From the NCBI GenBank assembly GCA_020027325.1, contig JAHRAL010000017.1, positions 1 through 34,558 of the forward strand: a DNA stretch of 34,558 bases. The letters run 5' to 3'. This document shows positions 12,812 to 13,909 of the stretch, in pieces (the stretch's first letter is position 1; every line of letters begins with the position of its first letter). Both the position numbers and the translations under genes were made by a program. The stretch comes from Cenarchaeum sp. GTDB taxonomy: Archaea > Thermoproteota > Nitrososphaeria > Nitrososphaerales > Nitrosopumilaceae. Below the pieces are notes generated by a model. It worked only from the letters and a program-made list of their open reading frames with translations. It had not been told where the DNA came from and did not search any database.

Positions 12812-12890
12812 CACTTGTTCCCAGTCGAGGATCTTTGCACTTGTATTATTTTACGTGACTAGGTTTTGGTATAGGCTACATCATGCTAAA
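12812..12890. repeat. Left copy of an imperfect direct repeat flanking the GNAT island
   Basis: This stretch, starting CACTTGTTC and ending CATGCTAAA, matches 13833-13909 in the same orientation with small gaps. By eye the first 30 positions agree at about 26, and later blocks (CTAG..., TTG, ATAG, TCAT, CTAAA) keep register. It lies between L44e and the 47-aa ORF. Confidence 0.6.
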
Positions 12891-12902: not shown

Positions 12903-12908
12903 TTTAAA
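12903..12908 (+). promoter_or_regulatory. TATA box of the tiny ORF-GNAT pair
   Basis: TTTAAA is centred about 27 nt before the ATG at 12933, the spacing of a leaderless archaeal transcript. This supports real expression of the small ORF. Confidence 0.5.
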
Positions 12909-12932: not shown

Positions 12933-13076
12933 ATGCCGCTAAGACAGGTACAACCACTTGACGATGATCAGTGGGATCAGCTTATGAAGGCGCTAAGCAA
13001 ACCGCCATCTGAAGAAACAATCAAATGCCTTCGAAAGGAAATCGAAGAGGCCCGAATGATAAAGGTGCACCGCTAG
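12933..13076 (+). CDS. Putative 47-aa antitoxin (TacA/DUF1778-tail-like)
   Basis: A short ORF from ATG 12933 to TAG 13074-13076, with a TATA box about 27 nt upstream. The predicted protein begins MPLRQVQPLDDDQWDQLMKA and has a helical acidic/basic body with LSKPPSEETIKCLRKEI. The pattern 'acidic-QW-hydrophobic-LxxPP-xxxxxLR' resembles the C-terminal toxin-binding tail of DUF1778/TacA antitoxins. The ribbon-helix-helix DNA-binding part is missing and the upstream frame is closed by a TAG at 12924. It ends 9 nt before the GNAT gene, the usual antitoxin-toxin order. The function is an inference from this pattern and context; no search was run. Confidence 0.5.
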   Translation: MPLRQVQPLDDDQWDQLMKALSKPPSEETIKCLRKEIEEARMIKVHR

Positions 13077-13085
13077 CTTTTAGAT

Positions 13086-13592
13086 TTGTCTAGATTCAAC
13101 ATTGATTTTAAGACAGACGTGCAGACTCATAAGCTAAAAAAGGAACTATTTGATCTAGACAGCTTTCGATGTAGTAACAAAGTCTATGAAGATTACCTAA
13201 AAAAAGAAGCATATAACGAACAAGAAAATAGCCTGTCTCAGACATGGGTGTTCGTATACAAGAAACAGAATGTGATAGGATATGTCTCTATTGCCATGGG
13301 CGACATAAACAAGACTGCCAGCAAAAAACTGATGAAATTTCCACATACCAACATTCCAGGTGTTCTGCTAGGTCAACTGGCAACGCACATTGACTACGAA
13401 GGACTCGGTGTTGGCAGATTCATGGTAGGCTGGGTATATGTCGAGGCATCAAGATTCGCAGAAAGTATAGGATGTCGTCTTTTATACCTCAATCCAGACA
13501 AAGGACTCAATGAATGGTACACCAAAATGGGTTTTACGCTTATCCAAAAGAAGAACAAACAAGACATTATGTTCCGTGATCTAAAATCATAG
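13086..13592 (+). CDS. GNAT acetyltransferase, TacT-type toxin candidate
   Basis: This 168-aa GNAT-fold protein resembles the TacT/AtaT toxins, which acetylate the amino group of aminoacyl-tRNA and stop translation. TacT-like features in order: FDLDSFRCSNKVYEDYLKKE (about 22-41), NSLSQTWVFVYKKQNVIGY (48-66), the acetyl-CoA loop YEGLGVGRFM (104-113), and WYTKMGF (144-150) with Y145 at the place of the catalytic tyrosine. The start is TTG at 13086; an in-frame TAG lies just upstream and the next Met is residue 71. Codon use is visibly AT-rich against its GC-rich neighbours, suggesting transfer. A housekeeping N-acetyltransferase remains possible. Confidence 0.75.
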   Translation: MSRFNIDFKTDVQTHKLKKELFDLDSFRCSNKVYEDYLKKEAYNEQENSLSQTWVFVYKKQNVIGYVSIAMGDINKTASKKLMKFPHTNIPGVLLGQLATHIDYEGLGVGRFMVGWVYVEASRFAESIGCRLLYLNPDKGLNEWYTKMGFTLIQKKNKQDIMFRDLKS

Positions 13593-13832: not shown

Positions 13833-13909
13833 CACTTGTTCACAGTAGCGGATTTTTGCACTCGGTATTTTCTATGCCTAGACCTTGTCATAGACGGCCT
13901 CATACTAAA
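13833..13909. repeat. Right copy of the imperfect direct repeat
   Basis: This copy starts CACTTGTTC and ends CATACTAAA, matching 12812-12890. The two copies are about 1,020 bp apart and each sits just upstream of a TATA box and start codon. A duplicated promoter region or the footprint of an insertion would give this picture. Confidence 0.6.

Follow-up and report, generated by a model that had tools for sequence, protein, structure and literature searches.

Candidate toxin–antitoxin pair of a TacT-like GNAT and a 47-residue, tail-only antitoxin in Cenarchaeum sp.

Can an antitoxin consist of its toxin-binding part alone? Classical type II antitoxins combine neutralization of the toxin with repression of their own operon, and models of toxin–antitoxin (TA) behaviour rest on this link. 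The question is raised by a gene pair on contig JAHRAL010000017.1 of Cenarchaeum sp. (assembly GCA_020027325.1, a 1.25-Mb draft of 134 contigs that resembles a metagenome-assembled genome (MAG)); the whole stretch of DNA analysed, 34,558 nucleotides (nt) long, is here called the window. In it, an open reading frame (ORF) of 47 amino acids (aa) precedes, in the same orientation and with a spacer of only 9 nt from stop to TTG start, a gene for a GNAT acetyltransferase. The pair is probably a type II-like TA module in which the antitoxin is a neutralizing tail alone and encodes no repression of its own. The features of the pair are the following:

12933-13076, + strand: gene for the putative 47-aa tail-only antitoxin, stop included (TAG at 13074-13076)
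12954-13016, + strand: antitoxin codons 8-28 (PLDDDQWDQLMKALSKPPSEE), similar to the DUF1778 toxin-binding tail by PF08681, the AtaR chains 6gtq_C and 6ajm_C, TacA columns 64-84 and shuffling
13086-13592, + strand: gene for the TacT-like GNAT acetyltransferase, 168 aa, TTG start, stop included
13395-13415, + strand: acetyl-CoA binding loop YEGLGVG, GNAT residues 104-110, recognized by conservation in the GNATs that accompany type-A antitoxins (see below)
13518-13520, + strand: GNAT Tyr145, at the alignment position of the catalytic Tyr in the TacT/AtaT/KacT family
12903-12908, + strand: antitoxin TATA box TTTAAA of the leaderless type, 30 nt before the ATG, with similar boxes in relatives

By sequence and by fold, the GNAT belongs to the TacT/AtaT/KacT toxin group. 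Indeed, a phmmer search against all PDB sequences returned 14 chains of TacT/KacT/AtaT type (E 1e-9 to 3e-5), with every other match at an E value of 0.4 or above, and a profile of the archaeal GNAT family reached TacT-type toxins at E values down to 3.5e-20. In parallel, the AlphaFold2 model of the window GNAT (mean pLDDT 93) had as its top 38 structural matches in the PDB only GNAT toxins of the TacT/KacT/AtaT/GmvT type (TMt 0.74-0.86), after which the score drops to ~0.55; the same pattern was obtained for the GNAT of a type-B relative. The motif WYTKMGF is present and its Tyr (Tyr145) is invariant among the aligned archaeal relatives, as is Gly110 of the acetyl-CoA loop in type-A GNATs, where Tyr104 and Gly108 are nearly invariant. 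The TacT-like character ascribed to this GNAT in a preliminary description of the locus, WYTKMGF included, is thus supported by both sequence and structure matches. The protein has no NCBIfam match and thus falls in no named NCBIfam acetyltransferase family (RimI, metabolite and antibiotic GNATs were tested), and PADLOC gave no match. A separate observation concerns Cys130 (in IGCR, window 13473-13475, GNAT codon 130), which is invariant in the aligned archaeal type-A and type-B GNATs, at a position where the aligned bacterial toxins carry Val or another residue; a redox or structural role is possible.

The likeness of the 47-aa protein to the tail of TacA and AtaR appears along several lines, each of them modest alone, but the DUF1778 family to which they point was predicted beforehand by the neighbouring toxin. 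In Pfam, the only match is to positions 48-68 of the 80 of PF08681 (TacA), and it falls short of the cut-off (E 0.045). When a profile of seven type-A proteins was compared with 177,635 PDB sequences, the 46-residue C-terminal fragment of AtaR in 6gtq came first (E 0.0094), and two further AtaR (DUF1778) chains ranked second and fourth. Alignment with seven bacterial TacA proteins by hhalign covered the tail only (E 5e-4, probability 31%), and the window antitoxin has a BLOSUM score of 55 against the AtaR tail, a value that neither 20,000 shuffles nor any other of 666 frames of the window attained. An enlarged type-A profile placed de novo TIM barrels at the top of the PDB; this candidate was rejected, as the match of 13 residues was summed over four repeats and no single repeat was significant. 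Pfam gave no DUF4065 match on the 47-aa protein; across the 44 proteins of types A and B that were scanned, no Pfam family turned up repeatedly except at chance level. A tail of this kind is able to bind on its own, as seen in solved complexes in which, according to the entry titles, the toxin (AtaT, TacT1, TacT3 or GmvT) is accompanied by a C-terminal antitoxin fragment only (PDB 6gtq/6gtr, 7ak8, 7ak9 and 9ils).

The ribbon-helix-helix (RHH) DNA-binding domain, in turn, cannot be present in the 47-aa protein, since an in-frame stop lies three codons before its ATG, with just two codons between; the full RHH-bearing PF08681/DUF1778 domain is absent by Pfam as well. An RHH domain further upstream in the same reading frame was considered and is ruled out by this stop together with the TATA box. 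A spacing of about 30 nt between box and ATG is what is expected of a leaderless archaeal transcript, and in the 54 loci compared the TATA-like boxes are concentrated between about -33 and -26, so that the TTTAAA box is consistent with a leaderless transcript that begins at the ATG or close to it. The window GNAT shares the reading frame of the TAG stop, a detail overlooked in the preliminary description, and a read-through fusion was therefore also considered; only 15 of 54 pairs share one frame, about the third expected by chance, so that the frame relation is random among relatives and the pair makes two proteins, not one read-through gene. With these results, the ORF with its own TATA box, ending 9 nt before a TTG-started GNAT, is confirmed as it had been described in coordinates and box, and the further proposal of a tail without RHH agrees with the DUF1778-tail matches and the upstream stop.

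The preliminary description had named the search for the same pair in related genomes as a test that could refute it; the pair proved to be conserved in relatives, which supports that description's reading of the locus. In a profile search over 400 genomes of the order, a strong GNAT match was found in ~49, and 61 distinct GNAT frames, none shorter than 120 aa, served for the pair statistics. Directly upstream of 54 of these lies a recognized ORF of 43-59 aa, and a 55th (L084) was found by eye; of the remaining six, two lie at contig ends, two are decayed copies within a single genome, one has an antitoxin with an internal stop and one lacks a recognized partner. The partners fall into type A (consensus MALRxVxPLxxxQWxxLxxxLxxxPT), to which the window antitoxin belongs, type B (LEGKDAKxFLEYDSRxLTxEEKxxLKKA) and type C, confined to a single family of the order. 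Comparable short ORFs precede GNATs in two further families of the phylum outside the order; distant GNATs of family f35 in the phylum have no recognizable small partner, so that some related GNATs fall outside the tail-only rule. Single-protein scans of collections of genome contigs and viral contigs, and an alignment scan of the viral contigs, gave no matches; an alignment scan of the genome contigs gave three Nitrosopumilales/Thaumarchaeota loci. In the order, tail-only partners are the norm for the TacT-like GNAT family, and other parts of the phylum have them too; in this sense the earlier remark that such an antitoxin would be unusual in an archaeon was wrong.

A six-frame search of the 400 genomes with the type-A small-protein profile identified 28 places, of which 22 adjoin a GNAT, five stand alone and one abuts the edge of a contig; these adjacencies, the pairing counts above and the low pN/pS of the short ORF (see below) exceed what chance would give. 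The solitary genes, which have no GNAT downstream (L052, L063, L068, L070 and L071), are all in one genome, G321, which contains many decayed GNAT copies, and they are possible anti-addiction genes. At another locus (L073, genome G109), the antitoxin frame upstream of an intact reverse-strand GNAT frame is broken by an internal stop, representing either a sequencing error or a silenced toxin.

Several points weigh against reading these pairs as toxins with tail-only antitoxins. To our knowledge, no archaeal member has been studied by experiment. The likeness to TacA is confined to type A and, when sequences are taken one by one, weak. Type B has no significant similarity to TacA tails; what links it to type A is where the gene lies, its size, a weak profile match (E 1.5e-4) and the prediction of a helix-turn-helix hairpin. 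Models of chains fused across natural in-frame stops (pTM 0.75 and 0.70) show no confident interface and do not fix the place of the antitoxin, though their artificial linkers are short. Finally, the correlation between antitoxin and toxin distances (Mantel r = 0.65 for type A, 0.79 for B and 0.94 for C) may partly reflect shared descent; as judged from this correlation and from the GNAT tree, on which antitoxin type maps with three changes, the fewest possible, the antitoxin co-evolves with its GNAT.

The surroundings of the module bear on its mobility and on its regulation. The genes for L44e and adenine deaminase stand head to head in eight relatives, separated by well under 150 nt, whereas in the window the gap is ~1.2 kb and is occupied by the module, which is thus an insertion in a conserved neighbourhood, a behaviour typical of TA systems. 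No further recognizable gene, a separate regulator included, lies between the two genes in the window. The module is flanked by a diverged direct repeat:

12812-12890, no strand assigned: left copy, 72% identical over 79 bp to 13833-13909
13833-13909, no strand assigned: right copy

This repeat may be a duplication made on insertion; a DNA search with the 131-bp stretch around its left copy gave no second match elsewhere in the genome. The same genome holds a second type-A locus (L044:1501-2708, contig C56), in which three tandem antitoxin genes, spaced by exactly 257 bp from start to start and 86% identical between the ORFs of copies 2 and 3, are followed by a single GNAT. This may possibly be an antitoxin dosage array, and it is resembled by a locus in genome G008 (L007:960-1445) with two consecutive type-B antitoxin genes before one GNAT.

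In the proposed mechanism, the GNAT would act, by homology, as a TacT/AtaT-type toxin that acetylates the amino group of aminoacyl-tRNA and stops translation. The antitoxin, predicted to form two helices (residues ~11-22 and ~27 onward) linked by a turn, would cover the toxin in the manner of the AtaR and TacA C-terminal tails and block its function, and its excess over the toxin would be set by its upstream position and by a leaderless ATG as against the TTG start of the toxin. With neither an RHH domain nor an adjacent regulator gene, the antitoxin would be unable to act as a classical repressor of its promoter, and classical autoregulation at an operator appears unlikely given that no DNA-binding domain was found. 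A refinement of this scheme, to which we give some but limited credence, is that the short protein neutralizes the toxin while regulation of the operon persists, through non-canonical DNA binding by the complex or through an unlinked regulator. In favour of this, PaaA2 is an antitoxin without DNA-binding domain that is controlled by another protein (PaaR2 for PaaA2-ParE2; PMC8630535), and the two younger of the tandem copies in the same genome have upstream regions that are 87% identical; however, 47 residues without a recognizable DNA-binding domain, in a module with no regulator gene between its neighbours, speak for the simpler scheme.

It is unlikely that the GNAT is instead a house-keeping or detoxifying acetyltransferase with the short protein as its activating or regulatory subunit. 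A different physiological function is offered as an option for GNATs outside the 'true TA clade' by Bikmetov et al. 2022 (PMC9177977), and NCBIfam has no name for the protein. Yet the closest solved relatives of this GNAT are all toxins, its partner resembles the toxin-neutralizing tail of AtaR, and its distribution among relatives has the traits of a TA system, being patchy, with paralogues, decayed copies and orphan antitoxins.

Far less probable is that the ORF serves in cis, as a leader peptide or a device for translational coupling, and does not act as a protein. It is short and immediately upstream of the toxin frame, which it often overlaps among relatives, as such an element might; however, its amino acids are conserved, and with a pN/pS of ~0.05-0.4 in nearly all close pairs it is, on this measure, under purifying selection, besides its likeness to the TacA tail and the existence of tandem extra copies and of solitary copies away from any GNAT. 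A degenerate TacA whose RHH was lost by recent mutation or by an assembly error in this genome, for which one might invoke the draft, MAG-like assembly, can be dismissed, as the same size and layout are shared by dozens of independent genomes and TacA (PF08681) is above cut-off in none of the 201 genomes sampled in the order.

A TA module with a tail-only antitoxin would have consequences for the family as a whole. We would tentatively consider that tail-only antitoxins, in several short-protein types, are the standard for TacT-like toxins in the phylum and, since the bacterial systems with RHH branch beside archaeal type A on the unrooted toxin tree, that the DUF1778 antitoxin may have arisen by fusion of a free tail to an RHH repressor. 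If true, transcriptional autoregulation would be a later addition to the TacA-TacT family. A widespread natural module in which the antitoxin has the neutralizing job only would also make the role of the repressor half directly testable, provide a naturally occurring, minimal inhibitor for a TacT-like toxin, of about the length of the crystal fragments, and point to an unannotated family of archaeal antitoxins of 45-60 aa. Two things are new: one type of short ORF is assigned to the TacA tail, and in an archaeal order the tail-only partner is found to be the rule, on evidence from pairing, selection and co-evolution; a literature search, with most subscription journals outside its scope, found no paper on tail-only antitoxins in archaea.

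Short ORFs of this sort have been seen before. GNAT genes outside the 'true TA clade' are preceded by short divergent ORFs without predictable DNA-binding domains (Bikmetov et al. 2022, PMC9177977), which in the accessible text of that paper are given no family, link to the TacA tail or archaeal hosts, and which probably include the archaeal tail-only kind. A GNAT toxin with a non-DUF1778 antitoxin is represented by DUF4065-GNAT (VcaA-VcaT; PMC9177977); its antitoxin belongs to another family, whereas the archaeal partner resembles a part of DUF1778. The lack of a DNA-binding domain in an antitoxin has a precedent in PaaA2 (PMC8630535), although in the PaaR2-PaaA2-ParE2 system the toxin is another one, ParE, and regulation has a gene of its own, PaaR2, of a kind that does not adjoin the archaeal pair. 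The closest counterparts are the DUF1778-GNAT modules TacA-TacT, AtaR-AtaT, KacA-KacT and GmvA-GmvT, with which the archaeal pair shares the antitoxin-first order, the toxin fold, the catalytic Tyr and the acetyl-CoA loop, and whose antitoxins it resembles in the toxin-binding tail. It differs from them in a toxin that is only ~20-30% identical to bacterial TacT-type toxins and in an antitoxin of ~47 aa without the RHH DNA-binding domain, against roughly 80-100 aa in those modules.
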